Virus record (IMG/VR): IMGVR_UViG_3300035133_000028
Span: 1-25,024 of that record
Strand: one strand, 5' to 3'
Length of the DNA stretch: 25,024 nucleotides
Source of the DNA: a virus
This document shows, one piece after another, positions 4,219 to 24,312 of the stretch; the stretch's first letter is position 1; every line of letters begins with the position of its first letter. The translations under genes were made by a program, and so were the position numbers. The notes under the pieces are model-generated. The model had not been told where the DNA came from, did not search any database, and saw nothing but the letters and a program-made list of their open reading frames with translations.

Positions 4219-4557
4219 ATGGCGAATGCAATTAAATTAAAACAAGGTGAAGCTAAAACAGTTAATTTTGCTATTACCAAAGGTGGATCTCCGGTTCAAT
4301 CGGCAACATTGTCCTTTGAGGTAAAGGAAAAAGCGTCTGATACATCTCCAGCTATATCAAAATTGGATGCTGATTTTGATAAAAGTGATCAATCCAATGG
4401 TAATTATACCCTTACCTTTGAAGTTGACGATACTAAAGGTCTTAAAGCTAAGACGTATGTATCGGAATTGAAAACAGTGATCACAGCAGACACCGATGTT
4501 GATAAAAGCTATGATATACCTTTTGTCGTAGAACGTGCGGTTATCGCAGATTCGTAA
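4219..4557 (+). CDS. Ig-like phage virion protein (112 aa)
   Basis: The start is two bases after the previous stop, with GAGGT upstream. The sequence reads as a single immunoglobulin-like beta sandwich: IKLKQGEAKTVNFAITKGG, then SATLSFEVKE, then a GNYTLTFEVDD strand and YVSELKTVITADTDVDKSYD, ending in FVVERAVI. This resembles the small N-terminal baseplate or Ig-like domains that phages use to describe a quantity added to a virion surface (BppU-N-type layout). It could decorate the tail tube or capsid or be a baseplate component. The fold call rests on strand pattern, not on a catalytic or binding motif. Confidence 0.65.
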   Translation: MANAIKLKQGEAKTVNFAITKGGSPVQSATLSFEVKEKASDTSPAISKLDADFDKSDQSNGNYTLTFEVDDTKGLKAKTYVSELKTVITADTDVDKSYDIPFVVERAVIADS

Positions 4558-4590: not shown

Positions 4591-4947
4591 ATGAGTGAAG
4601 TATTGGATTTAAATGATCTGGTTCAATCGGTAAAATTTACAGTGTTGGAAAAAACTTATGAGATTGCACCTATGAATGATGTAAAAATGAAAAAGGTGAT
4701 GGATCTCAGCAAAAAGATTTCGGAACTTAGTTCTGATGATAAAATGTCGGATGAACAGGAAGCAGAACTTTTAGATACTCAAAACACCATTCTTCATAAT
4801 TGTGTCAGTTTAAATACCAATGATAATTTGACACAAATTGATAAAAAAGATTTTTCTCTTTGGCCTATGAAATTAAAAAATAAAGTGTTGGAATTGGTTT
4901 TTAATCAAATAAGTGGTGGTGTAGAAGGAGAAGCGGAAAAAAACTAA
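4591..4947 (+). CDS. Tail assembly chaperone, gpG-like
   Basis: The ATG is preceded by AAGGAG at seven bases. The 118-aa product is small, helical and charged (VKMKKVMDLSKKISELSSDD, EQEAELLDTQNTILHNC), the expected size and nature of lambda gpG-type tail assembly chaperones, which hold the tape measure protein soluble while the tube polymerises. It lies just ahead of the tape measure gene, the standard place. Its last sense codons are GAA AAA AAC followed at once by TAA, so it ends on a canonical -1 slippery heptamer (4938-4944), and the -1 frame stays open for 107 more codons. A minority of ribosomes should therefore make a longer gpGT-like form of about 225 aa. The assignment combines position, size and frameshift; sequence motifs alone would not decide it. 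Confidence 0.88.
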   Translation: MSEVLDLNDLVQSVKFTVLEKTYEIAPMNDVKMKKVMDLSKKISELSSDDKMSDEQEAELLDTQNTILHNCVSLNTNDNLTQIDKKDFSLWPMKLKNKVLELVFNQISGGVEGEAEKN

Positions 4948-4960
4948 TTGCACGTTGCAA
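4925..4960 (+). promoter_or_regulatory. Programmed -1 ribosomal frameshift signal
   Basis: The slippery heptamer A AAA AAC occupies 4938-4944 and is read in the zero frame as GA[A AAA AAC], followed by TAA at 4945-4947. An internal Shine-Dalgarno-like AAGGAG lies at 4925-4930, seven bases upstream of the heptamer; such sites stimulate -1 shifting in bacteria, as in dnaX. Just downstream, TTGCA-CGT-TGCAA (4948-4960) can form a five-bp hairpin, though its three-base spacing from the heptamer is short. The -1 frame continues to 5267. Frameshifting between two chaperone genes just before the tape measure is a conserved trait of siphophage tails. Confidence 0.88.
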
Positions 4961-5267
4961 GGAATTTGCAGCGATTATTAATTTCCTTGGTGGGGCTTAC
5001 ACATTCGATGATCTTAACAACATGCCATATAGAAAATATTATTATGTTAAAATGGCAGTTGATTTTGAAATGATTCGACAACGTAAGCTAAATATAAGTG
5101 ATATTGCTTCTGCCTTTTCTGATCCAAAGAAGGGAGTTCAGCAATTAGAAAAACAAGAAACTCAGTTATCAATGATTTATAAAGGATCTACATCTGAACC
5201 ATCTTCTAAAATCAATTGGGATTTTCCAGAGGATGCAGCAGACAAAATGAGAAGATGGCAAAGGTAA
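4944..5267 (+). CDS. gpGT-like extension of the tail chaperone, made by -1 frameshift
   Basis: This is the 107-codon extension read after ribosomes slip at 4938-4944; the complete fusion spans 4591-5267. After the shift the frame continues LIARCKEFAAIINFLGG, through a Met at 5022, to DFPEDAADKMRRWQR. The Met at 5022 begins a nominal 81-aa reading frame but has no ribosome binding site before it (the upstream bases are GATGATCTTAACAAC), while the frame is open all the way back to the slip site. In lambda, the T part of gpGT binds the major tail protein while the G part binds the tape measure, and the ratio of the two forms matters for assembly. That role is assumed here from family knowledge. 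The tape measure gene follows after ten bases. Confidence 0.85.
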   Translation, partial: LIARCKEFAAIINFLGGAYTFDDLNNMPYRKYYYVKMAVDFEMIRQRKLNISDIASAFSDPKKGVQQLEKQETQLSMIYKGSTSEPSSKINWDFPEDAADKMRRWQR

Positions 5268-5277
5268 GGAGATAAAA

Positions 5278-8200
5278 ATGGCTGGTGAATCTGGTGCAGG
5301 AACAGAAATGGAAGTCACTAAGATTGTTTTAAGGTTAGAAACTAACTTTCAAAAAGTCTTAAAACAGCAAGTTGCAAATTTTGATCAGTTTACAAGACAA
5401 GCTAATCAATTGACACGACAAGTGGGTACTAATATGACCCAACTTGCCCGAACTACGTCAAAGACGTTTAATGCTGTTTATAAAAGCAATCGTAAAGAGA
5501 TTCAAGAATTTGTTTCCTTCACCAGAAACGCCTTGCAGGGTGTTCGTAAAGAAACCCTTCAGATGCAAGTTTGGCAGGATCGTATATCGCAAAAGACTAT
5601 TGAAAATTATAAAAAGATGCAATCTGAGATAGAGAAGGTACAACGTAAATCTACCTTAGTTAGTAAATCAAAAGGATTTACCGAATCTCAGAAAAAATCA
5701 GCACTTAAAGTATTTGATGAACAAGCGCAAGTAATAGAGGCAAAATATACCGAAACAATTGATAGAATGAAATCATTGACAGCTTCTTTGATGTCAAAAC
5801 ATCTTGCTGGTGCTGTGAAAGAATCGATGGCGACAATTGAAAAAGGGTCTCGATCCGCAGCAGTTACAGTTAAAAATGTTGTCCATGATATGCAAAGTAG
5901 GTTTAATCAGCTTTATTCACAAAGAAAGTTTATGGGCCAAGCTGATTTTGCATCGGCAGGTACACAGTTTTTAAAAGATCGTGAACAACAAATAAAAGTT
6001 TTAGAATCTTTACTCACTGCTCATCAGAAAAAACAAATTCAAGCTGAACAATATTTACAAAAACAAAAACAATTATTATCTCTGCAAACAAATGAAACTT
6101 TAAGAAAAAATCAAGAAAAGATGGTTGCTGATGCCAGAGCAGTTGTCAGAAAACTTGGTGGTGAATATGAATATATGTTTAATCAGATTCAAAAGTTTTC
6201 CAGAGGACAAACTGCAATTACAGGAGTTTTTAAAACTCAAGTAGAACAAGGCATTAAAGCAATTAAACAGACTTTAAGAGGTTTAAATTTAAAAAGAGAT
6301 TTTGAAAATTTATGGAAAAATTCAGTACAGGTGGCAAAGCTATCTGGAGAAAAATCAGGTGAAGCTTTTTATGAAGCTGCTAAAAAAGGAAAAGCATTAG
6401 ATACGGCATTAGTTGATAAATTAAAAAATCTTCAAGGTTTGTTGACAACAGCTAAACAGCTTAAAACTACTGGATTGGTTCCAAATGTAGAGCGAACAAT
6501 TTCCAGTTTAAAAAGATCCATTGATAGTATCAAAGAATTCCGAAAAGAATTTGCTTTAACTAAAAAGGAATTATCAAATATTCCTAAAGTTTCTTTTCAA
6601 CAATTTGCTAAAGGTGGGGTTAATCAGGCAAGAGATCTTGCAGTTGAAGTTAGAAAAGCAATTGGTGTTTTAAGGTCTTTAGGGCCAGTATCAGAAGACA
6701 ATTTTCTTGCAGTTCAAAAACAATTAAAAAAGATTGAGGGTTTATATAAACAACATTCCACTAAAGTAGTTGCTACTCAAAATACCCTTTCAAGAATAGT
6801 CAGGGAAATTGCCAGAGCAAGGGCTGCATCGCAAATTGCTACAAATGAAAAAGTTATTGATGCTTGGAAAGCATATGAACGACAATTAAAAGCGATTGCT
6901 AAACGAATAGCTGAAAAATTAAAATCAGCTACATTGCCAGCAGATCCTTATGAGCAATATAGAAAAGATACAATTGCAACATTACATCGTGTTAGGCAAG
7001 AAGTAGCAAAAAGTTTGTTTCCAAAAGATAAGATTAAATCTGATTCTGATTTTATTCAAGCAGAGTTTGAAAAAATAGCTACCCGATTAGAACAGATAAG
7101 TAAAAAAAGATTTATTAGACCAAAAAATATGACGGAAGCAAAGGATTTTATTGAAAAGGTAAAAATTAAAGTAAAAGAGTATAATCAACAAATTGTTTTA
7201 TTAGGTAAACAGTTAGACAGGTTGCGTAGAGTACAAAAATCAGCTTTTGGAGGAACAGGTGTAGAGGATCAAATATCTCAAACAAAAGCTCAATTAACAC
7301 AATTAAAACAAGCTGTCAGAGAATATGAAAGAGCGCAAGTTCAAATGCAACGTAAAATGGCAGTTTCCCATAAACAATCAATTAAAACCATGCTTAGATC
7401 TGGATGGGAAATGATTAGAAATTTCAGATGGCAGGTTGCAGCAGTTATTTATTTAATAACCAGAGCAGTTAGAGCCGTTCAAAGGGTATTCCTTGATGTA
7501 ATGGGTGAGATTGCTAAATATAGGCGTGAAGCAATGACCCTTGCAGCGCAATTTACCTTTAAGATGTTAGGTGATATGCGTGAAAATTTTGAAGGTGTTT
7601 ATCAATATTCACGTCAATTGATGAATAAAATGGAACAGGTTGCTGCAAAGACCATTTTAACAATGGAAGATATGACCATGCTTGTTAGGACATTTGCACA
7701 AGCAGGAATGATTCCCGATACTGATAAAGATGTTGAAAAAATTGCAATCATTGGTACTGCTATTAAAACATTGACTGAAGGTATGGCAAATGCTGGTACT
7801 CAGATGCGCCAGGAATTATACGCTATTATTGCTGGTAGGCAACGGGCGACTGACCAATTAGCAATGATGTTTCAGATGATGGGTGTTAATATTCAAAAAA
7901 TTATTGAGGAAGAAAGGGCAGGAGGTAAAAATTTAATTGATTCTTTGTCTGAGGCATTGGCTCCTTTTGGTGTTCTTAATGAAAAACTTGCTATGGAATG
8001 GGAAGCAATTCTTAATAAAATGAAATTGGCATGGCAGGTTATTAAGCGTATTGGTTTAGAGGATGCTTTATTAAGGACAACAAAAGAACTCAATGAAATT
8101 GCTGATAAATATTATTCTACTATGTCAGGTGCTACTGAAAAAGGTAGAGAATTAGCTGCATTATTACGTGCTGCTTTTGAAATAATTAAAGCTCCGGTTA

Positions 8201-10797
8201 AACTCATCGGTGAAATAATAAAAGTTGTTATAAATAATTTAAAATTAGTAGGTAAATTATTTGGAAATATTTATGGAGACTTTGCGACAACTACAAATAA
8301 AATGGAAGGATTGAGTACCGCAATGAAGGGGGTACTTACTATTACTGAAGTTGTATTAAAAGCTTTTGTTATATTAAGAGCAGTAGTAAGAACAATTGGT
8401 AAAATAATGGGTATTGCCTATAAGGTTCTTGTTGCGATTCATGGCGTGATAATGCTTATTGTGAAAGAAGTCATTAAAAGTTTAGGTGTATTTGGAGAAT
8501 TATTTGATACACTAAGTTTTGGTGCTGCTTCTCATGCTCTTGAAAAAATAAAAGGTTTATTAGGTAATTTAGTTCCTGATGATCTTAAAAAAGATTTTGA
8601 AGAAGTTAATGATATTATAAAGGAGATGCAAAAAAATCTTCAAAATCTTAATAAATTTCCTGTTGATATACAAAAAGCTTTATCGTTGAAATATGATCCA
8701 ATGCAGGTAGCAGATAAGGCAGCAGAACTTAGAAATAAATTAGATGATATTGAGTTAGCAGGACTTGGTGTTGTAGAAAGAGCAAACCGTGAACTTGAAA
8801 TGCGTAAGGAAGAAATTGAGTGGTTAAGAACAGCAGCAACATCTAATCTTGCTGCTATTCGGGCTTATTATTCTGAAATGACACGTATGGGAGTTAAATT
8901 TACTGAAGATGATAAAAAACGAATGAATGAACGAATTAAAGGTCATTTAAATGCATTAAAATTTGCAAATGATTATGAAAAATTCGCCATAAGGGATCGT
9001 AATAAAATAGTTGCTGAATACTATGAAAAACAAAGAAAACAAATGTCAACTTGGAAAGAGGAATATAAAGATTTTTGGAATAATCTTATTCCTAAAGATT
9101 TAACCAGAGCAGAGAAAACTAAAAAATGGTTTGAGGATATGGAAGCTGCATTGGAGGATTTAAGAGTTAAAAATCCTCTTGTTGCAAAAGAGTTTGAAAA
9201 ATTTTCTGATCGATTAAATGAAGCTCTTGGTCAAAGAAAATTAGATGATATAAAGGCTATTAATCAAGAAATTGAAAAGATGCAATTAAAATTAACTTCG
9301 CATCGTCCGGTTGATTCTATCAGTAAAATTAATACTGAATTTGATAAGATGAAAATAGCAATCAGAGATAATATTGATTGGACTGATAAACAAAAAGAAT
9401 CAATGGATAAATTGCTGGAATCAACTCGTAAAGAACGAATTGAAATTGAAAAAATGGGGATGGCTTATAAAGCTGCTGCTGCTGAAATGGAGGTACAATC
9501 ACAAAGAGCGCAATATTTGGCAGGTAGTTATTCCCCTGCAAAAAGAGCAGAAGGTGAAATTAAACAATTAAAAAATGAATACGGTAAACAGTTATTAGCA
9601 ATTCAAAAGGAAATTGATAAAACATATAAGCAATGGGTTGAAAACGGTCAATGGGCAACCAGAGAAGGATCTGCTGAAGCTCAAAGATATGTTTTAGCCT
9701 TACAACAGCAGATGGAGGAATTAAGTAAGACAACCGAAAGGGAGTTAAAGAAAAAACAATTTCCTATTTGGAATGATTTGGTTGAAGCGTCAAATCAATG
9801 GGCTGATGGATTTACCGATGCTTTGTCACAGATAGTCGATGGTGTTGATTCAGTATCAGAAGCTTTGGATGCACTACAAAAACAAATTTTAAAAGATACT
9901 TTAAAAATAGTTATTAAAAGAGGTATTACCGACCAATTACAAAGTGCCTTGGGATCTGGTTCGGATTCTCCAATGTCGAAATTTTTTGGAATGCTTCCTG
10001 GTGGTAAGGCAAAAGAAGGTGGAGCGCAAGAAGTTACGGCAACTAAACCATTACCTGTTATGATTTATAATCCTCAAGATATGATGGAGGATACAAAAGA
10101 TATAATAGGTAAATTTAATACATCCGGTGGATCACCAATACCTGTTTACGTTACCAATTTAGGTAGTGGTCAAATGGGTGCTGGTGGTATTGGTACTGCT
10201 GGTACAATATATCAAGCTGCTGGAGAGGTTGCAGAAAATGGTGTGGAAGTCGTACAGGGGGTCTCACAAGACCTTGCTGACATATCTGCTGAAATAGCTG
10301 AAAATACAGAAGCAGCAAGTCAAAGCACTAAATCTTGGTATAGTGGTATTCAGGAAACTTTTTCAAGTATAGGCAGTTGGTTTTCCAGTTTATTTAGTAG
10401 TGGTGGTGGCGGTGGTGGAGGATCAAGTGCTGGTAATTTAGCAATGACCGCAATATCAGCCTATGGTCGTGCCTATGGTGGTGGGGGTTATGGCTTTGCT
10501 GATGGTGGTGTTATTTCAGAACCGATTGTTGGAAAAGGAATGAGATCTGGAGAGATTTACAATTTTGGAGAAAATACTAAATACGGAGAAAATGAAATAG
10601 TTGCTCCAATGAAGAAGATGCAAAGATCGGTTCCTCAAAATAAAGTCACATATAATATGCCAATTCATTTGAGTGCTATTGATACTCAATCAGGTGTACA
10701 ATTTTTAACTAAAAATTCTGATGTTATTCAGGCTCAATTTGCAAGGAGTTTGAGAAGCAATAAACCTATTAGAAAGGGAATTCAAAACGCCTATTAA
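5278..10797 (+). CDS. Tail length tape measure protein (1839 aa)
   Basis: The ATG follows TAAGGAG. This is among the two largest genes in the window and directly follows the frameshifted chaperones, the defining place for a tape measure protein. Residues 1-700 are Lys/Gln/Glu-rich coiled-coil helix without long hydrophobic stretches. A hydrophobic helix lies at about 712-735 (AAVIYLITRAVRAV), and another hydrophobic cluster at about 968-1085, where family members may insert into the host membrane during DNA entry. Residues 1090-1600 return to charged helix. The C-terminus has a Gly/Ser linker (about 1700-1725) and the family-typical FADGGVISEPIVGKGM and IYNFGENTKYGENEIVAPM. At roughly 0.15 nm per residue this predicts a tail near 270 nm, about twice lambda's. 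No lysozyme or peptidase motif is evident. Confidence 0.95.
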   Translation: MAGESGAGTEMEVTKIVLRLETNFQKVLKQQVANFDQFTRQANQLTRQVGTNMTQLARTTSKTFNAVYKSNRKEIQEFVSFTRNALQGVRKETLQMQVWQDRISQKTIENYKKMQSEIEKVQRKSTLVSKSKGFTESQKKSALKVFDEQAQVIEAKYTETIDRMKSLTASLMSKHLAGAVKESMATIEKGSRSAAVTVKNVVHDMQSRFNQLYSQRKFMGQADFASAGTQFLKDREQQIKVLESLLTAHQKKQIQAEQYLQKQKQLLSLQTNETLRKNQEKMVADARAVVRKLGGEYEYMFNQIQKFSRGQTAITGVFKTQVEQGIKAIKQTLRGLNLKRDFENLWKNSVQVAKLSGEKSGEAFYEAAKKGKALDTALVDKLKNLQGLLTTAKQLKTTGLVPNVERTISSLKRSIDSIKEFRKEFALTKKELSNIPKVSFQQFAKGGVNQARDLAVEVRKAIGVLRSLGPVSEDNFLAVQKQLKKIEGLYKQHSTKVVATQNTLSRIVREIARARAASQIATNEKVIDAWKAYERQLKAIAKRIAEKLKSATLPADPYEQYRKDTIATLHRVRQEVAKSLFPKDKIKSDSDFIQAEFEKIATRLEQISKKRFIRPKNMTEAKDFIEKVKIKVKEYNQQIVLLGKQLDRLRRVQKSAFGGTGVEDQISQTKAQLTQLKQAVREYERAQVQMQRKMAVSHKQSIKTMLRSGWEMIRNFRWQVAAVIYLITRAVRAVQRVFLDVMGEIAKYRREAMTLAAQFTFKMLGDMRENFEGVYQYSRQLMNKMEQVAAKTILTMEDMTMLVRTFAQAGMIPDTDKDVEKIAIIGTAIKTLTEGMANAGTQMRQELYAIIAGRQRATDQLAMMFQMMGVNIQKIIEEERAGGKNLIDSLSEALAPFGVLNEKLAMEWEAILNKMKLAWQVIKRIGLEDALLRTTKELNEIADKYYSTMSGATEKGRELAALLRAAFEIIKAPVKLIGEIIKVVINNLKLVGKLFGNIYGDFATTTNKMEGLSTAMKGVLTITEVVLKAFVILRAVVRTIGKIMGIAYKVLVAIHGVIMLIVKEVIKSLGVFGELFDTLSFGAASHALEKIKGLLGNLVPDDLKKDFEEVNDIIKEMQKNLQNLNKFPVDIQKALSLKYDPMQVADKAAELRNKLDDIELAGLGVVERANRELEMRKEEIEWLRTAATSNLAAIRAYYSEMTRMGVKFTEDDKKRMNERIKGHLNALKFANDYEKFAIRDRNKIVAEYYEKQRKQMSTWKEEYKDFWNNLIPKDLTRAEKTKKWFEDMEAALEDLRVKNPLVAKEFEKFSDRLNEALGQRKLDDIKAINQEIEKMQLKLTSHRPVDSISKINTEFDKMKIAIRDNIDWTDKQKESMDKLLESTRKERIEIEKMGMAYKAAAAEMEVQSQRAQYLAGSYSPAKRAEGEIKQLKNEYGKQLLAIQKEIDKTYKQWVENGQWATREGSAEAQRYVLALQQQMEELSKTTERELKKKQFPIWNDLVEASNQWADGFTDALSQIVDGVDSVSEALDALQKQILKDTLKIVIKRGITDQLQSALGSGSDSPMSKFFGMLPGGKAKEGGAQEVTATKPLPVMIYNPQDMMEDTKDIIGKFNTSGGSPIPVYVTNLGSGQMGAGGIGTAGTIYQAAGEVAENGVEVVQGVSQDLADISAEIAENTEAASQSTKSWYSGIQETFSSIGSWFSSLFSSGGGGGGGSSAGNLAMTAISAYGRAYGGGGYGFADGGVISEPIVGKGMRSGEIYNFGENTKYGENEIVAPMKKMQRSVPQNKVTYNMPIHLSAIDTQSGVQFLTKNSDVIQAQFARSLRSNKPIRKGIQNAY

Positions 10798-10807
10798 GGA
10801 GTAAGTT

Positions 10808-11173
10808 ATGGCAGCAGGTGATCCTTTTAATTTTGAAGTTCATTCTATTAATCCTGGTACTCCAGCATGGAATGTTTTAATGACGGATATGGAGGGATGG
10901 AAAAGAAAAACACGTTTAAAGTCAACAGAACCTATTCGTAGATGGACGGTTGAGGTTCGTGGACGGACAAACACGGAAAAAGATTCAATCATTACTCATT
11001 TTAATGATAACAGTGGGCCATTAACAAATTTTGCCTGGAATGTTCTTCCTGCTATTTGGAATGCTGGATATGGAACACAATATCAAGTTCAATATGAATC
11101 TTTAGAATATGACAATCCAGATGGAATTGCAAATATTTGGGATTTTGTTATTACTTTCAGGGAGTGGTTATAA
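10808..11173 (+). CDS. Distal tail / minor tail protein (gpM-like or GTA g12-like)
   Basis: The ATG is preceded by AAGGAG. The 121-aa product has the layout of small tail-tip adaptor proteins: an N-terminal strand, RRWTVEVRGRTNTEKDSII in the middle, then FAWNVLP and a final strand FVITFREWL. The pattern of a basic-aromatic strand followed by a 'T-x-x-E-x-x-x-I-x-x-hydrophobic' helix is that of lambda gpM and related distal tail proteins, which close the tube and join it to the hub. It is the first gene after the tape measure, exactly where gene transfer agents carry the distal tail gene (g12). Its stop TAA shares its final A with the ATG of the next gene. The gpM versus DUF2460 type is not settled by eye. 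Confidence 0.78.
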   Translation: MAAGDPFNFEVHSINPGTPAWNVLMTDMEGWKRKTRLKSTEPIRRWTVEVRGRTNTEKDSIITHFNDNSGPLTNFAWNVLPAIWNAGYGTQYQVQYESLEYDNPDGIANIWDFVITFREWL

Positions 11174-12006
11174 TGCCAAAAGATATTGATAGTGATGAAT
11201 TAAAATATTTTTTTCAAAGTGGTGTAACTGCTTTGACCGGATATGTATTTAGTCTTTCAAGTGGAACGGAAAGATATGTAGCTAATAATGCCGATGTTAG
11301 AGATGGTTCAAATATATATTCAGCATTATCAATTAAAAGAAATCCAATTCGATCTGAAGAAGGTACAATAATGAACGAATTAGATATTGGATTGGATCAT
11401 GTTGATCTTAGTTTTAAGAATGATGTAATGGCAGGTAAGTATAATAATATTCCTGTTAGTATATATTTAATTATCCCTTATTGGCATTTTGCTGATTATT
11501 GGGCGGTTGGTGCGTCTGTGCTTTTATTTAAAGGATATACTGATGAACCTAAAGGAGATGAACATTGGGTAACTTTTTCTGTTAAACCTTTTCCCTATCT
11601 TGATCGGCAATATCCAAAAAGAGTATATCAATCTGGTTGTAATTGGACTTTTTGTAATGCTGGTACATGCGATTTAGATTTAGCCGATTATACTACTAAT
11701 GTTAATTTATCTTCTCAATCTGATGGAATTACTTTAACGTGTTCACATGGAAAGGCAGCAGATTATTTTATTCCAGGGTATGTACAAATAAAAAGCGGTG
11801 CTTTGATAGGACAAGTGAGACCAATTTTAAGTAATACTACAAGTACGGTAATTGTAAGAGTACCTTTTGATGGTACTATTTCAAATGGTGTCAATGTAGA
11901 TATTGTAAAATTGTGTGCTAAAAATTATGAAACTTGTGATAATGATTTTGGAAATTATACTGAATATGGAGGGTATCCGTGGGTTCCAAGAGAACCGATA
12001 ATATAA
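11173..12006 (+). CDS. Tail tip hub protein, Phage_BR0599/DUF2163 type, probable Fe-S binder
   Basis: I chose the ATG at 11173 (TAATG overlap, GGGAG upstream), giving 277 aa; an in-frame upstream start at 11137 would lie deep inside the previous gene. The N-terminal 140 residues match the DUF2163 pattern (VFSLSSGTERYVANNADV, LLFKGYTDEP), and the rest matches Phage_BR0599: YPKRVYQSGCNWTFCNAGTC (about 147-166), an ADYFIPGYVQIKSG strand, then VKLCAKNYETCDNDFGN and GGYPWVPREP. Cysteines lie at 156, 161, 166, 190, 248 and 255. The final Cys-x6-Cys pair and the upstream Cys cluster parallel the cysteines by which lambda gpL holds a [4Fe-4S] cluster. This corresponds to the hub protein (g13) of gene transfer agents. 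Its 3' end overlaps the peptidase gene by 28 bases. Confidence 0.88.
   Translation: MPKDIDSDELKYFFQSGVTALTGYVFSLSSGTERYVANNADVRDGSNIYSALSIKRNPIRSEEGTIMNELDIGLDHVDLSFKNDVMAGKYNNIPVSIYLIIPYWHFADYWAVGASVLLFKGYTDEPKGDEHWVTFSVKPFPYLDRQYPKRVYQSGCNWTFCNAGTCDLDLADYTTNVNLSSQSDGITLTCSHGKAADYFIPGYVQIKSGALIGQVRPILSNTTSTVIVRVPFDGTISNGVNVDIVKLCAKNYETCDNDFGNYTEYGGYPWVPREPII
11968..11973 (+). promoter_or_regulatory. Ribosome binding site for the GTG-started peptidase gene
   Basis: GGAGGG ends five bases before the GTG at 11979, inside the upstream hub gene. It is the best Shine-Dalgarno match near the peptidase N-terminus, and no ATG follows in frame before the conserved catalytic region. It therefore decides the GTG start. 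Confidence 0.7.
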
Positions 12007-12455
12007 AAGATTTAATTGTTCAAAACGCACGAAAACTTATTGGTACTCCATTTAGAAATTCCGGCAGATCGACATTAGGCATTGATTGTGCCGGATTATT
12101 ATATTTGGCTTTTAATCGTGCGAACATTCCTTTTCCTTCAAAATCTCCTGAAGGATCATATACCGTTGCATGGTGGAAACATACTGATGCAGAAGAACGT
12201 TTATATAATTTATTATTAAGTGCAGGATTTAGATTTTTATCTGATGATGAATTAATAGATAAAGTGGATATTGTTTGTTTTAAATTATATGGTGATAAGT
12301 ATCCTGCTCATCATTGTGGTATTATGGTAGATCAATTTAATTTTATCCATGCTAAATGTGGGTGGAAGTCTAATGAAAATAAAGTAGGATTTGATTCTTT
12401 ATATCCATCTTATTTTAAGAGATTAGCAAAGGTAATGCGTCATAAGGAGTTTTAG
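11979..12455 (+). CDS. Tail-associated NlpC/P60 cell-wall peptidase
   Basis: The start is GTG with GGAGGG five bases upstream, overlapping the hub gene by 28 bases. The 158-aa product is a single NlpC/P60 papain-like domain. ARKLIGTPFRNSGRSTLGIDCAG carries the expected nucleophile Cys37; His112 in HHCGIMVD is the catalytic base; His124 in NFIHAKCG is the third polar residue. Length and motif spacing are complete for the family. Such enzymes cut peptide bonds in peptidoglycan, and in tail modules they sit between the hub and the central tip protein, as does g14 in gene transfer agents, where they open the cell wall locally during DNA entry. There is no signal peptide, as expected of a virion part. 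It ends directly against the next ATG, whose AAGGAG lies in this gene. Confidence 0.92.
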   Translation: MGSKRTDNIKDLIVQNARKLIGTPFRNSGRSTLGIDCAGLLYLAFNRANIPFPSKSPEGSYTVAWWKHTDAEERLYNLLLSAGFRFLSDDELIDKVDIVCFKLYGDKYPAHHCGIMVDQFNFIHAKCGWKSNENKVGFDSLYPSYFKRLAKVMRHKEF

Positions 12456-14708
12456 ATGGGGCAAACAACCGGACAAACATTAGGAATGATAGGTGGTGGT
12501 ATTATTGGTGGTCTTATTGGTGGTTATCCAGGGGCTATGATAGGCATGGCTCTTGGTGGTCAACTTGGTTTGTGGATTGATCCACCAGATGCACCAAAAC
12601 CGCCTCCTTTAGGAGATCTTGGTCAGAATTCCTGGGTAAAATCTACTCCAGTTCCTATATCTTTTGGTCAAGTTAAAATATATGGTGGTGTAATTTGGGT
12701 AGGATCAATTGAAGCTGATTGGTATAATCAAGGATCAAGAAAAAATCCAGAATATTCTCCTAAAATGGATTGTGACTTTGCGGTAGCTCATTGTGAAGGG
12801 CCAGTTGGTAGTTATAAAAAATATTGGATGAATGAAAAATCTCTTGGTGAAATGAAAGATGAGGGTTTTAAATTATCTACTACAAGTTATCCAGGCACAG
12901 CAACACAATCAATTGATCCCACAATATCTTCTTATCAATCTGGTCAAGCTATTGGAGCAATTAATCTTAAATATACCGCTTATACAGTATGTCAATTAAG
13001 AGTAAAAGATCAAATTATTCAAAGATTGCCTACCATTGCTGCTGAAATAGAAACTTTTAATTTGGAATCTGGAGAAGAAGATGCTAATCCTATTCGTTGT
13101 GTTTACGCTTTTTTAACTAATACAAGATGGGGAATGGGATTAGATACATCTCTTATGAATGGAGATCCAGATACAGCAGATAGTCCTTGGAAAATAGCAT
13201 CAGATTATTGTGATGAATTGGTTCAGTTTATTGATTGGGATGATTCAGTAGTGAATGAACCACGATTTAGATATTCAAATTATTTTGATGCAAGATCGAA
13301 AGCTTTTGATATTATCACTGATATAATGTTGACTTGTAGGGGGATTGTTAGATTAAAACAAGGTTTAATTGAACCTGTTATTGAAAATGCAGATGAAACC
13401 CCTGAAGCATATTATTCTGATAGAAGAACAGAATGGTTTCAAGCTGGAGGATCAAGTACGGTAAACAGACTTTACGCTGATTTTTCATCTTATAATAATA
13501 TTTATTGGTTTGGTGATGAGGGCAAAATAACTATATCAGGAATAGATTACACATTTATAGTTAAGGATCAGACTTCAACATATATTGATCTTTTTGAGGA
13601 TCTTCCGGTATCTCCGAATTTAAATGATGATTTTAAATTAGTAAAAGACAATATTAAAGAAGGATCATTTAATTTTAAATATACTGCTGATTTTGATACA
13701 TCAAATAGACATAGAGTTGAATATATATTAAGGAAAGTTAAAGACGCAGATGATAATTGGTCGAATGAATATATTTGGGATGTAGTTGAAAAGGACAATG
13801 AAGATTTTTATCAATATATTGATCAATATGGAGAACAACAAGCAGATACTAAATTAAAAACAGTTCGATTGCCAGGAATAAAAAGAAAATCACAAGCAAT
13901 GAGGATGTGTCAGTTTTATTCAGATTTTGTTTTGTATAATAGAAACTGGTGTGAATTTATTACTGGATTACAAGGTTATTATCATGCCATTGGTGATATT
14001 ATTGGAATAAGTCATGCTCAAACTGGATGGAATGGTAAATGGTTCAGGATCATAGGAATGGAAGAATCGGAAGGAGATGAAATTAAATTACAATGTTTTG
14101 AATTTAATCCTAATGTCTACAGTGATACTATTCCTAAAGTAACCGCACCAAATGATAATTCTACACCGACACCATATGTTGCTCCCGATATAGTTGAACG
14201 TTTTTATGCTGTGCAAGATTTTTCTGAAAATAAAATTTATATTCTTTTTAAAAGACCAGATGATAATCCATATTTTATAGGAGCAAATATTTTTGTAAGT
14301 GTAAATGGTGGTGATTGGATTTGGAAAAAACTTGTAGGATATGTGACCGCTTCAGTAAAACTTGATGCAGGAATTAATGATTCGCAAACTACCATTGGAT
14401 ATGACAATTCAACGTTATATGGATCTTTTCCATCTTCCGGTTCTTTTTGGATTGAAGATGAATTGATTACCTATACAGGGATTTCCGGTGATCCTGATTA
14501 TGAATTTACAGGATGTGGTAGAGGGATCAGTCCGGTTGCTCATACAATAGATAAATACTGCATGTTAAAAGATGATTATGTTGATTATATTACTTTTGAA
14601 GATGATGAAATTGGTCAACAATGGAATATAAAAGCGGTATCGGTAACTGTTTATAATTTAACAGCGGATTTTTCTACTTCTCCAAGTAAGGTTATTACTT
14701 TATCATGA
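12456..14708 (+). CDS. Central tail hub / host-specificity protein (gpJ or GTA g15 'megatron' type), copy 1
   Basis: The ATG is directly after the peptidase stop, with AAGGAG upstream. The 750-aa product opens with a glycine-zipper hydrophobic stretch (GGLIGGYPGAMIGMALGG, about residues 18-35). Then come motifs typical of tail-tip proteins of this class: STPVPISFGQVKIYGGVIW (63-81) and FAVAHCEGP (108-116). Residues 336-405 contain a small ADFS...QTSTYI...KDN module, and TGWNGKWFRI lies at 523-532, followed by C-terminal beta domains (about 570-750). These proteins form the trimeric centre of the tip that contacts the envelope and carries the fibres. It is short for the class (gene transfer agent versions exceed 1200 aa), and the following gene is a larger paralogue. 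The stop overlaps the next ATG as ATGA. Confidence 0.85.
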   Translation: MGQTTGQTLGMIGGGIIGGLIGGYPGAMIGMALGGQLGLWIDPPDAPKPPPLGDLGQNSWVKSTPVPISFGQVKIYGGVIWVGSIEADWYNQGSRKNPEYSPKMDCDFAVAHCEGPVGSYKKYWMNEKSLGEMKDEGFKLSTTSYPGTATQSIDPTISSYQSGQAIGAINLKYTAYTVCQLRVKDQIIQRLPTIAAEIETFNLESGEEDANPIRCVYAFLTNTRWGMGLDTSLMNGDPDTADSPWKIASDYCDELVQFIDWDDSVVNEPRFRYSNYFDARSKAFDIITDIMLTCRGIVRLKQGLIEPVIENADETPEAYYSDRRTEWFQAGGSSTVNRLYADFSSYNNIYWFGDEGKITISGIDYTFIVKDQTSTYIDLFEDLPVSPNLNDDFKLVKDNIKEGSFNFKYTADFDTSNRHRVEYILRKVKDADDNWSNEYIWDVVEKDNEDFYQYIDQYGEQQADTKLKTVRLPGIKRKSQAMRMCQFYSDFVLYNRNWCEFITGLQGYYHAIGDIIGISHAQTGWNGKWFRIIGMEESEGDEIKLQCFEFNPNVYSDTIPKVTAPNDNSTPTPYVAPDIVERFYAVQDFSENKIYILFKRPDDNPYFIGANIFVSVNGGDWIWKKLVGYVTASVKLDAGINDSQTTIGYDNSTLYGSFPSSGSFWIEDELITYTGISGDPDYEFTGCGRGISPVAHTIDKYCMLKDDYVDYITFEDDEIGQQWNIKAVSVTVYNLTADFSTSPSKVITLS

Positions 14709-17700
14709 ATTTAGATTTAGAGAAAATTTTTAAAGATAAATCCAATCGAAAGCATTATATCGCACAGGGTACAGGTGCAGTAATAGGTGGGTTTATTGGT
14801 GGATACCCTGGAATGATGATTGGTATGTCTATTGGAGGGTATTTATTTAAACCTGATGAAGCAAAAAAGAAACAATATTCAAATTATGATATTCAATTAA
14901 GGACAAGCAGACTTGATTCAGTACCCCATGTAATAGGTACTGATATGTGTGCTGGAAAAGTAATTTTTTTTAATAATAGAGTATTTGCATATTATGATCA
15001 AAGCCATATACCAAAAATGGCAAATTCAACAAGTAAAGATAAATGGCAAAAATTTATTAATTCTGTTTCTAAAGCAGGTATGCCAGCAAGAAATGTTGAA
15101 TATGCTGTTAATTTTTCTGGTAAGTATAATGCCAATCAACATATAGGAGTAGTTCATATTAATGACATTCCTTTTTGGTTTTGGGTTTTGCTCAGTGATA
15201 TGTTTGAAAATCATGATGATGCATTAAATCCTGATCCTCCTTTAGCAATACTTGATGCTTCACAATTTGGAGAACAATCTGGAAGAATTGATATAGAAGA
15301 ATTAATTGGTACACCAATTGAAAAAAATACAATAATGTATTATCAGGGATATTTTGCTGATTTTACAGGTTTGTCTACTGCTCCTTCTACTTCTAATTTA
15401 CCTTCATTATCTCAACTTGGTTTTCTTAATCCTTCTAATACTGTTGGTATGCCTTTAGAGCAAATGCCCAAATTTACCGCCGAAATGAATTCAGATCGTG
15501 TTTGGTTGAGTCCTGAATCACATAAAGGTGGAGATGGTATGCCTAATTCAGGAAAACACTATTTTGAAACTGAAAGTCGATATGATTTAGATAATTATTC
15601 AATAGTAATGAGTAGATATTGGGGTTGTCGGGATGCAAAAAATAATTGCTTTGTAGGAATGGAAAATGGGGATTATGCTCCAATTTACATGGAGGGCAGT
15701 GATCGCAATTGGACGTATGCAGGAAATGATGCAACTTTACCAGCGATAGGAAGTCCTCAAACAGCTATTCGGGATTGGTTTAAAGCAAATATATGTCCAG
15801 ACATTAATTATAGCGAATTTGGTTATACAAGATCTCCAGCATTTTTACAAGCTACAGATGTCAATGATAATCGAGTTTATATTTGCGTTCATAGACATTG
15901 GTGGAATCCTAATCAGGGTAGAGGTGTCTATGGGTTAGATAAATGGGATCATCATCATGCAGAATATGGTGTTGAGTTTGATATTTTTTATTTTGATAGA
16001 AGTGATCCTGATTATAAAGTACAGTCTCTTATTTATAATCAAAGATATAATTTACCAGATCCAGAAGGAGGAATTACTGCTGATGCCCCTGCCAATCCTG
16101 CAATTGAATTAGATAGTATGGTAGTATCTGAAGATCATGTTTATCTATTTGGTAGTAGAGTTCAAACTGATGTTCTATTAAGTGATTACAGGACAATTGA
16201 AAGTGGTGATAACTCTTATACAAAAATATATGCTGACTTTTCACAATATCCTGATGGATGGTGGGAGGGAAAATATGCTGCATTAGGTCAAAATGATTAT
16301 AAAATTTGGAGAGAAATAACTGAACAAACCAGTACCTATATAGTGGTAGCTAAAGAATTTGCAGCATTGCCCACTGCTGGAGAAGTAGTTCAACTTTGTA
16401 AATATCCTAAATGGGTTGCTGATTGGGGAATAGTTGGAGAGGGCAGCACAACCACAAAATTAATTTGTAATTCTCCAACGTGGAATTCTGATGGATGGCT
16501 TGATAGTTCCTATAGTGGTCATACCTATTGGGATAAAGTTTTTTTTATAGGTCAATGGTTGTATGGTGTTGGGGCTTCTAATCCTGGGGATGGAACAGAA
16601 ATAAATTTATCATCTCCATTAGATAGAGAACCAATTCCAGGTGAACGAATTTGCTTTACAATGGATTCATCAACTGATTTTGATGAAAACGATACTAATC
16701 CTAATTTTAGTTCTGACTATGTAGGAATATTTTTTGATGACTTGGGATTTGATAACCCTACAAAAGCTGATTTGGGAAATTTAAATGCAAGTCGTATAGA
16801 TAGTAATGAGTTTAATCGATCTCATCATGTTTGTTTGAAAATTGATAAAAGCACCGGAGCAATAGAAGTACATGATACACAGCGATTGACCACTCCTACC
16901 TATTATGTTGGGCCAGCACTTACTTGGACAGGTGATGTAGTGGTGTATGCTTGTGCAACCGATGTGCAGGCTTTTGTTTATTCTCATGAATCTCAGTATG
17001 GTACTCAAATGGCAGTTTATTCTTATTTGCTTGATTTTGATGATGGTGAGATTCATGAACAGATTCATCGTAGAAATGAATATTCAGGTGGTCATGCTCC
17101 TGCGTGGTGTTACATGGGTTGTGTTTCAGCGAAAGAATGGGATGGTGTATTACAGCAATATGTAGATGTTTGGTATACTGTTCTCAGGGTTTATGATAGT
17201 TATGGATCATTGAATGATGCGGTAGATCCAGGTACATATTTTTTAAGATTGGGTGAGGGTCATTTTTCAAATAAACAAGTATGGTCAGATTTAACTGTTT
17301 TAGGTGGGTATCATGGTCTTGATCTTAATCGAAAAAGTATTTCTATATTATTATTTCGTAAGCAAATAGCTACAGGCCCATTATATGTTGATACTTATAC
17401 TAATTCTTATCCAGATGAAAATGATTATCAAATTGGGAAATTTGGTATCACTGAAGATATTTATTTTTATGTGGAAAAAGTTGCAGGATTGGGAGGAACA
17501 GGTATTTCTTCTGGCCCATTTGAAATGTGGCGATTTACGATTCCTACTGAACAAAATGCAGCAGGGGAATTATATTGCATTGCTAAAAGCCATTTATGGG
17601 ATGCAGAAACAGATTTAACTTTTGATTGGTTAGAAATTCCAAGTGTAGGTAATTTTAGAATGTGTAGGTATGGTTGGTATGCAAGTACTTTAACACAATA

Positions 17701-20296
17701 TAACTCAGGTGTATGGTATCAATGTGATGAATCTCCTCCACAAATTATTGAAGACCTTCTTGGAATGACAGAACCAAGATATATTCATGGTTATATAGAT
17801 GAATCACTTTTTAATTTTGATGAAGCTTTAGAGATTTGTAATGAAATAATTGATGCAACAATATACACTCCCAAAGAAGAAATTGATTTAAGAGAAAGAA
17901 GATTTCAATTTTCTAAAAATTATGATTCTCCAATAAAATTTGTAGATGCTCTTAAAGAGGTTTTGGATACTTGTCAGGGGTTTTTGTCTATTTGTCATCA
18001 TAGAACTTATTATAATATATATACTACTGAACGTGTATCTGATCCAGATGAATATGAATCTTGGGAACTATTTAGTAAGGTAGATGATTATAAAATGATA
18101 GTTCCTAATAAGGATGAAACACCTGTACATTATTTTGGACTTGATAAAGCAGTTTTTGTTAGTACTCAATTGTCAGATGAAAATAATCTTATATATGGTG
18201 ATTTTTCAGCCTATCCTAATAATTATTGGAAAGGAGATTTTGTTTATTATGGTGAAACAAAGGATCACTTATTAACAAGTAGTTTTGCACCTGAAGCTCC
18301 ACCAAAATATAGAAATTGGGATGTTATAATTAAACAGACTTCTACTTATATAGAAATAGGTGGTGGTCTTGCTTCTTTTTTTCCAGCTTCAGAATCATTT
18401 ACTTTAAGAAAAGATAATATAAAAGAGGGTAGTTTTACTTTTGCAGAAAAATCAGAAATAGATCGTCCTAATAAAGTTAGGATAGAATTTAAAAATAGAT
18501 TAAATAAATATATGAAAGAAGTTGCTGAAGCTGAAGATACATATCGATTAGAAATTTTAGGTGAACTTGAAAAAATTGATTTTTATCAGATGCATGGAAT
18601 TAAAAGAGCTACACAAGCATCTCGTATGGCTACAAGAATTCTTGATCAATGGAATTATCAAAAATATATTTGTGGATTTGAAACTGACTTATTAGGTTAT
18701 TCTCTTTGTATGGGAGATATAATAGGGGTCTCACATGATATAACTGGATGGAATGGTAAATGGTTTAGAATTGTGAGTATGGAAGAATTAATAGATTTTG
18801 AAGTTAAATTTGAATTAGAAGAATTCAATCCCTATTGTTATCATGATTATGGTGTTCCTATATTTCAAGGATTTCCTTATACTGGATTTCCAAAACCATA
18901 TGTACCATTGCACGTTGAACGATTTGAGATAAAGGAAGACATAGAATTTAATCGATTATATTTTACGTTTAAAAAATCTGATTTTGATGGAGGATTTTTT
19001 GTTGGTGCAAGAATATATCGAGAAGTTGGAGATACTTATGAATATATAGATATTATAAATCAAACAGTATCTTCTGTTAAATTATCTCAAAGTGTTGGAT
19101 TAAACGATACTACAATTTATTATGACAATGATACTTTGTCTGGTTCATTTCCTGCTCAAGGAGTTATTTGGATAGGAAATGAGTTAATGTATTATCATGG
19201 TATTGATACTACTAATTACGCATTCACAAACGTTGTGAGAGGATATAAAGAAACAGATCAGGTAGAACATTTAATTGATGAAGAAAATGATGAACTTAAT
19301 GTTTATATTATTTTAAAAGATGATGCTACTCTTTATTATGAAATACCTGAATCATGGGTAGGAACGACACAAACATTTAAAGCATCAGCATTTACTGTTC
19401 ATAATAATACAGTACCGCTTGATTTATCTCCATCGTTTACCATTGATATAGTTGGTTATGGGGTACTGCCTTATTTTCCTGAATCAATTCAAAACGCATT
19501 GCCTGGAACTGAAAATATATTTGAAACTCTTGGATTGGAGGAGGTCACAAAAGAACTTTCGATTGAAGAAGTAATTGAAATTCTTGGTTTAGGTACTTCA
19601 GAAACAATTACTGAAACATTAACCTTTTTAATTGAATCTCTTGGCTTGGGCGATAGTTTAAAGGATGTATCTATAATTAATATCGTAGAATCTCTTGGAT
19701 TAGGAGATGTTAAGTATCAACCAGATTATGCAAGTATAATTGAAGCTATTGGTTTGGGTGATTCAAAAACAGTTATTGAAACCTTGGCTCATTTAACTGA
19801 AACCCTTGGTTTAGGAGATTTTGTTGAAATTATAGAAGTAATTACTGAAACCCTTGGTTTGGGTGATTCAAATATAATCGTTGAAACATTGGCCCAATTG
19901 GTTGAAGCTATTGGTTTGGGTGATATAAAGACAGTTTCAGAAACATGGACTCAATTTATTGAAACCCTTGGCCTTGGTGATAGTAATTATGTATTAACTG
20001 AAGAATCGATTACTGAAACTCTTGGTTTGGGTGATGTTACGATTGTGGAAGTAACAGAGTATATTGTAGAATCTCTTGGTTTAGGAGATTCAAAAGAAGT
20101 TACTGAAACATTAGCTCAAATATTTGAATCTCTTGGATTGGGTGATTCGGTATCTGATGAAATAGTTTCAACAGGTGATGGCCTTGCTCTTGAAAGTTCC
20201 GGTTCTCTATTACTTGAGAGTAGTGGTAAATTGTTATTAGAAACTCAGGAAAGTTTAGAAGAACAAATGATGATCTTAAATAATAATATGTTATAG
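14705..20296 (+). CDS. Enlarged paralogue of the central tail hub with C-terminal GLGD repeats, copy 2
   Basis: The ATG sits in an ATGA overlap with copy 1; its own ribosome binding site is weak, so translation is probably coupled. The N-terminus repeats copy 1's zipper (GGFIGGYPGMMIGMSIGG, about 28-45) and next segment. Residues about 100-1040 are an insertion without counterpart in copy 1, Trp/Tyr-rich and beta-like, with one extra QTSTYI module (507-565) and His-rich patches (396-398, 416-418). From about 1040 similarity resumes: EICNEIIDATI, a second QTSTYI/KDNIKEGSF module (1161-1245), TGWNGKWFRI (1347-1356) and SVKL-YDN-L-GSFP-IW strands. Residues 1607-1814 are twelve short repeats centred on ESLGLGD, then a LLLESSGKLLLE tail. 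It likely forms the outer tail tip or fibre base. The inserted region's fold is not recognised. Confidence 0.82.
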   Translation: MNLDLEKIFKDKSNRKHYIAQGTGAVIGGFIGGYPGMMIGMSIGGYLFKPDEAKKKQYSNYDIQLRTSRLDSVPHVIGTDMCAGKVIFFNNRVFAYYDQSHIPKMANSTSKDKWQKFINSVSKAGMPARNVEYAVNFSGKYNANQHIGVVHINDIPFWFWVLLSDMFENHDDALNPDPPLAILDASQFGEQSGRIDIEELIGTPIEKNTIMYYQGYFADFTGLSTAPSTSNLPSLSQLGFLNPSNTVGMPLEQMPKFTAEMNSDRVWLSPESHKGGDGMPNSGKHYFETESRYDLDNYSIVMSRYWGCRDAKNNCFVGMENGDYAPIYMEGSDRNWTYAGNDATLPAIGSPQTAIRDWFKANICPDINYSEFGYTRSPAFLQATDVNDNRVYICVHRHWWNPNQGRGVYGLDKWDHHHAEYGVEFDIFYFDRSDPDYKVQSLIYNQRYNLPDPEGGITADAPANPAIELDSMVVSEDHVYLFGSRVQTDVLLSDYRTIESGDNSYTKIYADFSQYPDGWWEGKYAALGQNDYKIWREITEQTSTYIVVAKEFAALPTAGEVVQLCKYPKWVADWGIVGEGSTTTKLICNSPTWNSDGWLDSSYSGHTYWDKVFFIGQWLYGVGASNPGDGTEINLSSPLDREPIPGERICFTMDSSTDFDENDTNPNFSSDYVGIFFDDLGFDNPTKADLGNLNASRIDSNEFNRSHHVCLKIDKSTGAIEVHDTQRLTTPTYYVGPALTWTGDVVVYACATDVQAFVYSHESQYGTQMAVYSYLLDFDDGEIHEQIHRRNEYSGGHAPAWCYMGCVSAKEWDGVLQQYVDVWYTVLRVYDSYGSLNDAVDPGTYFLRLGEGHFSNKQVWSDLTVLGGYHGLDLNRKSISILLFRKQIATGPLYVDTYTNSYPDENDYQIGKFGITEDIYFYVEKVAGLGGTGISSGPFEMWRFTIPTEQNAAGELYCIAKSHLWDAETDLTFDWLEIPSVGNFRMCRYGWYASTLTQYNSGVWYQCDESPPQIIEDLLGMTEPRYIHGYIDESLFNFDEALEICNEIIDATIYTPKEEIDLRERRFQFSKNYDSPIKFVDALKEVLDTCQGFLSICHHRTYYNIYTTERVSDPDEYESWELFSKVDDYKMIVPNKDETPVHYFGLDKAVFVSTQLSDENNLIYGDFSAYPNNYWKGDFVYYGETKDHLLTSSFAPEAPPKYRNWDVIIKQTSTYIEIGGGLASFFPASESFTLRKDNIKEGSFTFAEKSEIDRPNKVRIEFKNRLNKYMKEVAEAEDTYRLEILGELEKIDFYQMHGIKRATQASRMATRILDQWNYQKYICGFETDLLGYSLCMGDIIGVSHDITGWNGKWFRIVSMEELIDFEVKFELEEFNPYCYHDYGVPIFQGFPYTGFPKPYVPLHVERFEIKEDIEFNRLYFTFKKSDFDGGFFVGARIYREVGDTYEYIDIINQTVSSVKLSQSVGLNDTTIYYDNDTLSGSFPAQGVIWIGNELMYYHGIDTTNYAFTNVVRGYKETDQVEHLIDEENDELNVYIILKDDATLYYEIPESWVGTTQTFKASAFTVHNNTVPLDLSPSFTIDIVGYGVLPYFPESIQNALPGTENIFETLGLEEVTKELSIEEVIEILGLGTSETITETLTFLIESLGLGDSLKDVSIINIVESLGLGDVKYQPDYASIIEAIGLGDSKTVIETLAHLTETLGLGDFVEIIEVITETLGLGDSNIIVETLAQLVEAIGLGDIKTVSETWTQFIETLGLGDSNYVLTEESITETLGLGDVTIVEVTEYIVESLGLGDSKEVTETLAQIFESLGLGDSVSDEIVSTGDGLALESSGSLLLESSGKLLLETQESLEEQMMILNNNML
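19523..20146 (+). repeat. Twelve in-frame ~54-base repeats encoding E-[ST]-[LI]-G-L-G-D
   Basis: Cores of 21 bases start at 19523, 19577, 19634, 19688, 19742, 19799, 19847, 19904, 19961, 20015, 20069 and 20126, so spacing is 48, 54 or 57 bases (16, 18 or 19 codons). Ten cores encode GLGD exactly; the first two are degenerate (GLEE, GLGT). Spacers often read T-x-x-E-T-L-A-x-L. Codons vary between copies (GGT/GGA/GGC, TTG/TTA/CTT), so the repeat is held at protein level and is not a recent DNA expansion. Confidence 0.93.
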
Positions 20297-23303: not shown

Positions 23304-24047
23304 ATGAAAGTATTAAAATTTGTTGGTGATGTTGAATTACCAGAAATAGAATACTTAGAAGAAACAATGGGATTGGGAGATGCTTATTCTTTAGGGTTTA
23401 TTGGTTTTGAAGAATTTGATGAAACCATTGGTTTTAATGATAGCATGTATACGATAGTTGAAATGTATCTTACTGAATCTCTTGGATTGGGAGATACCCC
23501 TGCTGAATTAGTATCCATTACCGAAACGATGGGTTTGGGAGATGTGGTCTATCAATATGATTATACCCATATAATCGAAACTCTTGGTTTGGGTGATGAA
23601 TTAACTAATACAATGGACATATATGTAGAAGTAGATGAATCCCTTGGATTAGGTGATGGAGGATTTGGTTATTTAGAAATTAATTATAATTTAAGATGGA
23701 GAACCCGAACAAAAAAATTAAATTATGGTTTTGGAACTGCTCCTTTTGGTGATGTTGTTTCTTACGGAGATGGAGATGTAATCGATGAGCTTAAAGAATT
23801 TAAGGTAAAGGTGATTCGATTATCTGATGAAACTGTTTTGAGAACAGCTACTATTACCATTGCCAATAAACAATTTCCTGATGGATCTGCTCAATATGTT
23901 TATACGAGTGCAATGAACATATCCGATAATACTACCTTTGATCCTAATTTAAGATTTGAAGTTTATCAAGTTGATGTAAATGATGTTTGGTCTCCAGCTA
24001 AATATTTAGATATAACAGTTACCGATGAAGGGGGAGATTTTGTATAA
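23304..24047 (+). CDS. GLGD-repeat tail protein with C-terminal FN3-like domain (247 aa)
   Basis: The start ATG is four bases after the previous stop, with no good ribosome binding site, so re-initiation by ribosomes from the upstream gene is likely. Residues 20-118 hold six E-[TS]-[ML]-G-L-G-D repeats (one degenerate, GFND), the same motif as the C-terminus of the large hub paralogue three genes upstream. Residues about 160-243 (ELKEFKVKVIRL, ETVLRTATI, YVYTSAMNI, LRFEVYQVDVNDVWSPAKY) read as a fibronectin-III-like domain of the kind that ends many tail hub proteins. One reading is that this is the displaced C-terminus of an ancestral hub protein. Another is a separate partner that binds the hub through like repeats. 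The stop shares its last A with the next ATG. Confidence 0.75.
   Translation: MKVLKFVGDVELPEIEYLEETMGLGDAYSLGFIGFEEFDETIGFNDSMYTIVEMYLTESLGLGDTPAELVSITETMGLGDVVYQYDYTHIIETLGLGDELTNTMDIYVEVDESLGLGDGGFGYLEINYNLRWRTRTKKLNYGFGTAPFGDVVSYGDGDVIDELKEFKVKVIRLSDETVLRTATITIANKQFPDGSAQYVYTSAMNISDNTTFDPNLRFEVYQVDVNDVWSPAKYLDITVTDEGGDFV
23361..23657 (+). repeat. Second GLGD repeat array (six units)
   Basis: Cores begin at 23361, 23421, 23475, 23523, 23577 and 23637, spaced 60, 54, 48, 54 and 60 bases. Five encode GLGD and one GFND. The core protein sequence and period match the array at 19523-20146, and core DNA matches closely (for example 23577-23597 against 20015-20035, identical over the 21-base core). 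Confidence 0.9.
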
Positions 24048-24298
24048 TGGCTTATACAACAGCATTTAATTTATCAAAACCTGCATATCGTACAGTGAGG
24101 TATGATGAAGAAACCAATGATAACATGGATCGATTGGAAGCAATGGCACTTGGATTTCCAGGTACAACTGCCCCAGGAACAGCAGGTAATTGGCCCGATG
24201 TAACTCCGACAACAGGTATGCGTTGGATTGATACAGCAAATGATCAGGAAAAAGTTTATTATAATAGTTCGTGGCAAGTAGTAAAAACATTCACTTAA
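24047..24298 (+). CDS. Small phage tail-fibre-type protein (83 aa)
   Basis: The ATG overlaps the previous stop as TAATG, and a GGGGGAG ribosome binding site lies upstream. The 83-aa product has an N-terminal FNLSKPAYRTVRYDEETNDNMDRLEAM stretch resembling segments of collar and fibre proteins that begin 'with N particles/points to set', and ends in TTGMRWIDTANDQEKVYYNS plus W-Q-V-V. The latter has the G-x-x-W-x-D-T...Y-x-x-x-W form frequent in short phage tail-fibre modules. It is complete and without membrane segments. Probably a small fibre or baseplate accessory; function unproven. Confidence 0.72.
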   Translation: MAYTTAFNLSKPAYRTVRYDEETNDNMDRLEAMALGFPGTTAPGTAGNWPDVTPTTGMRWIDTANDQEKVYYNSSWQVVKTFT

Positions 24299-24300
24299 TA

Positions 24301-24307
24301 GGAGGAG
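24301..24307 (+). promoter_or_regulatory. Ribosome binding site setting the start of the 198-aa gene
   Basis: GGAGGAG ends five bases before the ATG at 24313. It shows that translation starts there and not at the in-frame GTG at 24271, which lies inside the upstream gene and lacks such a site. Confidence 0.75.
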
Positions 24308-24312
24308 TCAAA

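Follow-up and report, generated by a model that had tools for sequence, protein, structure and literature searches.

A probable -1 frameshift at A_AAA_AAC, directly on a stop codon, in a presumed tail assembly chaperone gene (G/GT) of an unclassified tailed phage

Are two neighboring reading frames in this virus record, one of 118 and one nominally of 81 amino acids, two genes, or one gene whose second part is reached by a shift of frame? The window, by which we mean the whole stretch of DNA that was analyzed, is a 25,024-base virus record with a G+C content of 34%; it is A-rich, and its genes are tightly packed. The features of the junction and the two genes flanking it are all on the plus strand. 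The zero-frame gene G (positions 4591 to 4947) is preceded by a strong Shine-Dalgarno (SD) sequence and encodes 118 amino acids (13.4 kDa), presumably the short product of a tail assembly chaperone gene. Its 3' end reads GCG GAA AAA AAC TAA, in which the heptamer A_AAA_AAC (4938 to 4944) is in frame, made up of the A at 4938 and the last two sense codons, and directly abuts the zero-frame stop TAA (4945 to 4947). After a slip of one base back, reading would continue as AAA AAA CTA ATT GCA CGT and end at the TAA at 5265 to 5267. This -1 frame extension, T (4944 to 5267), comprises 107 codons plus the stop and would form the C-terminal part of a GT fusion predicted to have 225 residues (about 26 kDa). 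The nominal 81-aa open reading frame (ORF; 5022 to 5267) lies inside the T frame and is most likely part of T. A preliminary description of this DNA had reported a slippery heptamer placed directly on the stop, a -1 frame open for 107 codons past the shift (until 5267), an internal AAGGAG upstream, and a small hairpin downstream. We found the first three as described, with AAGGAG at 4925 to 4930, and structure prediction returned a hairpin of 8 bp that pairs 4953 to 4960 with 4966 to 4973.

Taken alone, the heptamer and the open -1 frame both lack significance, each being expected by chance or from gene packing. Our chance test covered 17 chosen ORFs of the window (7852 codons), with the ORFs at 31 to 324, 5022 to 5267, and 24271 to 24909 and short overlapping ones excluded. 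These ORFs contain 69 in-frame heptamers of the form X_XXY_YYZ, of which A_AAA_AAC is one. When codons were resampled by amino acid, the last 12 codons of G held a mean of 0.72 heptamers, and in 89% of runs at least one gene had a heptamer among its last 12 codons; the rarity of the heptamer was thus not significant by codon resampling across the 17 window ORFs. Similarly, the -1 frame remained open for at least 107 codons beyond the stop in 6 of the 17 ORFs, G among them, as the following gene often occupies this frame. Given that the heptamer and the open frame are not significant alone, the case rests on conservation in relatives.

Relatives were sought in IMG/VR with T and with G, in searches seeded by short exact peptide patterns, which find near relatives only; one of the T searches used patterns that exclude the slippery site. 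Six relative contigs, carrying six different data-set numbers, span the junction. As L005 and L006 are identical in G and T, they were counted once, giving five distinct relatives and, with the window, six distinct sequences. The G match began between residues 1 and 5 and extended to residue 118 in all six contigs, and identity to the window was 69 to 84% for T over its whole length and 57 to 75% for G. A seventh contig (L023), found with G, matched only at its end and stops inside G, which makes it uninformative on the junction, and L002 to L004, L011 to L022, L024, L025, and L034 are on the same contigs as L005 to L010. Wider searches added nothing to this set: G and T had no match at an E value of 1 among 50,697 phage records, none of the 70 stretches of a genome collection that matched a T pattern was confirmed as a relative, searches by way of the tape measure and hub proteins returned no additional junction-spanning contig, and a six-frame HMM search in which G and T were run against the window and L001 to L038 recovered already known contigs only.

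Across this divergence, the window and all six spanning contigs share an identical 14-base junction, GGAAAAAAACTAAT, in the same phase and with TAA in the zero frame. The comparison with relatives that had been proposed as a check therefore came out in favor of a conserved heptamer, and none of the six contigs had kept both frames while lacking a slippery site. In all six distinct sequences, G ends in the same three codons, nucleotide for nucleotide. Identical codons also occur at 14 of the 41 invariant G residues other than Met and Trp, so we regard the identity of the end codons as supportive rather than decisive.

The two candidate stimulators flanking the heptamer are weaker than the preliminary description implied. 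Both are where it had put them, but the SD-like element is present in only four of the six distinct sequences and the hairpin shows no compensatory change. In the window, AAGGAG ends 7 bases before the heptamer, and its duplex with a pairing energy of -8.8 kcal/mol makes it a possible 5' stimulator. Defining as SD-like any element of -6.0 kcal/mol or lower, we found such elements upstream of the heptamer in the window, L008, and L009 (-8.5 to -8.8 kcal/mol) and in L010 (-6.0 kcal/mol), and none in L005 and L007 (-2.6 kcal/mol); the exact AAGGAG occurs in two of the six. For comparison, 400 positions picked at random in the following gene gave a 5th percentile of -7.2 and a 10th percentile of -6.2 kcal/mol. 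Given its absence from L005 and L007, the SD-like element is not a constant component of the signal. The predicted hairpin (4953 to 4973), a possible 3' stimulator, follows the heptamer after an 8-nt spacer. It has a minimum free energy (MFE) of -9.9 kcal/mol, with a z score of -1.47 on 46 nt and -0.30 on 80 nt. Over the 46-nt stretch, which is identical in L005 and L007, the six sequences had z scores from -1.2 to -2.05. The stem is part of the MFE structure of five of the six, L008 adopting a different predicted fold, and the consensus stem obtained from RNAalifold and pair counts keeps 44 of 48 pair cells; the same two methods gave no compensatory changes in the stem among the six sequences. 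The stem also overlaps a strongly conserved coding stretch, so the conservation of its sequence cannot be credited to RNA structure. We consider the hairpin a plausible, unproven 3' stimulator. The earlier label "unusually close" does not seem to us to fit the two elements, whose spacings of 7 and 8 nt look ordinary beside cases such as dnaX.

RNA polymerase, rather than the ribosome, might instead slip on the run of adenines and produce mixed mRNAs encoding the same fusion; in its favor, the window and all six contigs keep exactly seven A. We nevertheless think such transcriptional slippage very unlikely. A stretch of seven A is short for RNA polymerase to slip on efficiently, and this one keeps the exact X_XXY_YYZ phase, with a C closing it at the stop. 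The SD-like element (in four of six distinct sequences) and the hairpin lie nearby as well. In addition, lambda and many other phages are reported to make GT by ribosomal frameshifting (PMC5009743).

If ribosomes do change frame at the junction, the codons directly beyond it should matter as protein, and they do. The amino acids of T codons 1 to 12 are invariant in the six distinct sequences. Over the 15 pairs, codons 2 to 27 differ by 110 synonymous and 45 nonsynonymous codon differences, compared to 229 and 325 for codon 28 to the end. Pairwise dN for codons 2 to 27 ranged from 0 to 0.145 and dS from 0.06 to 2.02, with one pair saturated. Overall, then, conservation in the -1 frame is stronger for the 26 codons that separate the shift from the Met at 5022 than for the remainder of T. 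From the stop that precedes it up to codon 28, the T frame contains no ATG, GTG, or TTG in any of the six distinct sequences. The extension is therefore under selection before Met28 with neither an ATG, GTG, or TTG of its own nor a real SD. The -1 frame thus encodes protein, and ribosomes enter it by some route other than an ordinary start; frameshifting is the simplest route to these 26 codons.

A ribosome might also enter the T frame by stopping at the TAA and restarting at the ATT or ATA that overlaps it (TAATT or TAATA), yielding a separate T protein. The geometry would allow it, in that ribosomes ending at 4945 adjoin an Ile codon of the -1 frame, with the SD-like element of the window 16 nt upstream. 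The overlapping codon, however, is ATT in three and ATA in three of the six distinct sequences, both very poor start codons; L005 and L007 do not have the SD-like element; and the invariant AAA AAC would be left unexplained. On these grounds termination and reinitiation seem to us highly improbable.

Two separate genes, the second starting at 5022 and the heptamer being a chance by-product of Glu-Lys-Asn codons, would agree with the frequency of heptamers near the G C terminus under codon resampling and with the conservation of Met28 of T (the ATG at 5022) in all six distinct sequences. The start itself argues otherwise. SD pairing in the 20 nt before the ATG at 5022 amounts to 0 kcal/mol in the window, compared to -9.2 kcal/mol at both the 4591 and 5278 starts, which bears out the observation that the 81-aa ORF has no ribosome binding site. 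The codon-28 ATG is preceded by a pairing of only 0 to -1.0 kcal/mol in all six distinct sequences, in each of which the starts of G and of the downstream gene reach -9.2 kcal/mol or better. Together with the 14-base junction identity and the stronger overall conservation of the T-frame codons before 5022 than of those after it, this leaves separate genes extremely improbable. That the 81-aa ORF is the end of a frameshift protein is, by contrast, strongly supported by the junction shared with six of six contigs and by selection upstream of 5022. A sequencing or assembly indel that split one gene deserves next to no credence, as indel errors are common in homopolymer runs such as this one but the same frame break in six of six contigs, with six data-set numbers and 57 to 75% G identity, contradicts it.

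What, then, would the frameshifted gene encode? Beginning 10 bp past the T stop, a gene of 1839 amino acids (5278 to 10797) is by its length and position presumably the tail tape measure gene, the neighbor expected after G/GT; searches of PHROGs and Pfam gave no telling match for it. In all six distinct sequences, an ATG with an SD stands close behind the T stop. Beyond it comes a hub-type protein (PF09356, E = 2.1e-12; phrog_778, E = 5.1e-33). Just upstream of G, a 112-aa gene (4219 to 4557) matches phrog_1084 (unknown function; E = 7e-05), and no major tail protein match was obtained among the upstream genes scanned. G and T gave no chaperone match in PHROGs and Pfam, the listed rows being weak and unrelated. 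An AlphaFold model of G (pLDDT 77.7) aligned best, among 452 PDB chains, with the HK97 tail assembly chaperone 2ob9 (Z 7.8, under the safe level of the tool; next best 5.5), at a root mean square deviation of 4.1 over 96 residues and 6% identity, a likeness in structure. With Foldseek, the G model gave nothing significant against the PDB (best E = 0.47) and no match at an E value of 0.001 or better against predicted viral proteins, among which 6 of the first 25 hits bear the name tail assembly chaperone (E = 0.0086 to 0.051). The T model is of low confidence (pLDDT 64.6) and had no useful structure match. The modeled fold of G is thus suggestive of a tail assembly chaperone, and the presumed identification, which the present analysis adds to the earlier one, is carried by gene order and the frameshift, with the fold in agreement.

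The arrangement resembles lambda G/GT in having a short gene right before a presumed tape measure, a heptamer at the end of G, and a -1 extension without a start. It differs in that neither G nor T has a matching family in PHROGs or Pfam and in its heptamer, which is G_GGA_AAG in lambda and here A_AAA_AAC directly on the stop. The frameshift of tail assembly genes is described as conserved among double-stranded DNA phages (Xu, Hendrix, and Duda, 2004, cited in PMC5009743), and AAAAAAC recurs among the reported cases. It is the slippery site reported for phiCbK-like phages, and in Caulobacter phage phiCbK (gp93/gp94) it belongs to a chaperone gene that precedes the tape measure, as is presumed here (PMC3556154); in the haloarchaeal virus HCTV-2 it is a reported slippery site (PMC5009743), and in Paenibacillus phage Dragolir a possible one (PMC6003738). 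A parallel at the stop itself is gp12/gp13 of Acinetobacter phage vB_AbaS_Loki, whose heptamer is described as lying directly next to the stop (PMC5313236). Checking the sequence of record LN890663, we found ...TCAAAAAACTAATC, in which A_AAA_AAC is followed at once by a zero-frame TAA, just as in the window. Loki differs from the window in that its chaperone genes are separated from the tape measure by another gene, and searching the phage collection showed no sequence relation of G. In the SEA-PHAGES training data, slippery site and stop are reported to lie 26 nt apart on average (PMC10885494); set against this mean and the zero distance of Loki, the zero distance seen here is short, yet with precedent.

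We conclude that this locus, from a tailed phage that is unclassified, very probably encodes the G/GT tail assembly chaperones, with a -1 frameshift of the lambda G/GT type at A_AAA_AAC that would yield a GT fusion. Both frames, the conserved site, selection on the -1 frame as coding sequence, and the long gene just downstream are seen in the sequences; we infer the slippage itself, its rate, the tape measure identity, and the chaperone function. Most ribosomes would terminate at the TAA at 4945 and release the 118-aa G. In a minority, the Lys- and Asn-tRNAs on AAA AAC would slip one base back onto AAA AAA, and these ribosomes would read 107 codons in the -1 frame to give the 225-aa GT. By analogy with lambda, G would be in large excess over GT, both might bind the presumed tape measure protein encoded at 5278 to 10797, and the T part might recruit the major tail protein. 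It is reported for the lambda type that there are many G per GT, that G binds the tape measure, and that T recruits tail protein (PMC5009743).

How readily such a site would slip depends on the ribosome. On mammalian ribosomes, A_AAA_AAC is reported to rank with the shiftiest sites, and in Escherichia coli it is much less shifty than A_AAA_AAG (PMC5009743). Re-pairing from AAC to AAA seems to be poorly tolerated by bacterial ribosomes, and one insertion-sequence cluster with A_AAA_AAC is a proven case, with no established stimulator in the account given of it (PMC4066793). A low rate of slippage would suit a chaperone pair whose long form is rare. We also considered whether, in this phage group, the stop is itself part of the signal, such that a pause with the stop in the A site aids a weak heptamer and the ratio of GT to G follows the supply of release factor. 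We think this unlikely; the TAA, invariant in the window and all six relatives and placed alike in Loki, fits selection for frameshifting, for termination, or for the T-frame codons CTA A alike.

On the frameshift reading, two apparent ORFs become one gene with two products and a likely function, which corrects the reading of a group of uncultivated phages. The arrangement is well known in tailed phages, and the understanding of frameshifting is unchanged. A clean, conserved A_AAA_AAC that abuts a stop should nonetheless be useful for learning how a site that is weak in E. coli works in other hosts.

We made several further observations elsewhere in the window. The stretch from 11137 to 14708 encodes hub-type (PF09356, PF09931), NlpC/P60, and J-like tail proteins in ORFs that are close or overlapping, an arrangement as in other long-tailed phages. 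An E(S/T)LGLGD-type repeat occurs eight times in the last ~230 residues of a tail protein of 1863 amino acids (14705 to 20296). The repeat returns six times, the variants ETMGLGD and ETIGFND included, in a separate 247-aa protein (23304 to 24047) 3 kb away; motif copies are often 16 to 19 residues apart. Finally, the neighboring ORFs at 31 to 324 and 349 to 2247 share their last six residues, LNYENP, before their stops (304 to 321 and 2227 to 2244), and NYENP is also found once each in L024 and L025.
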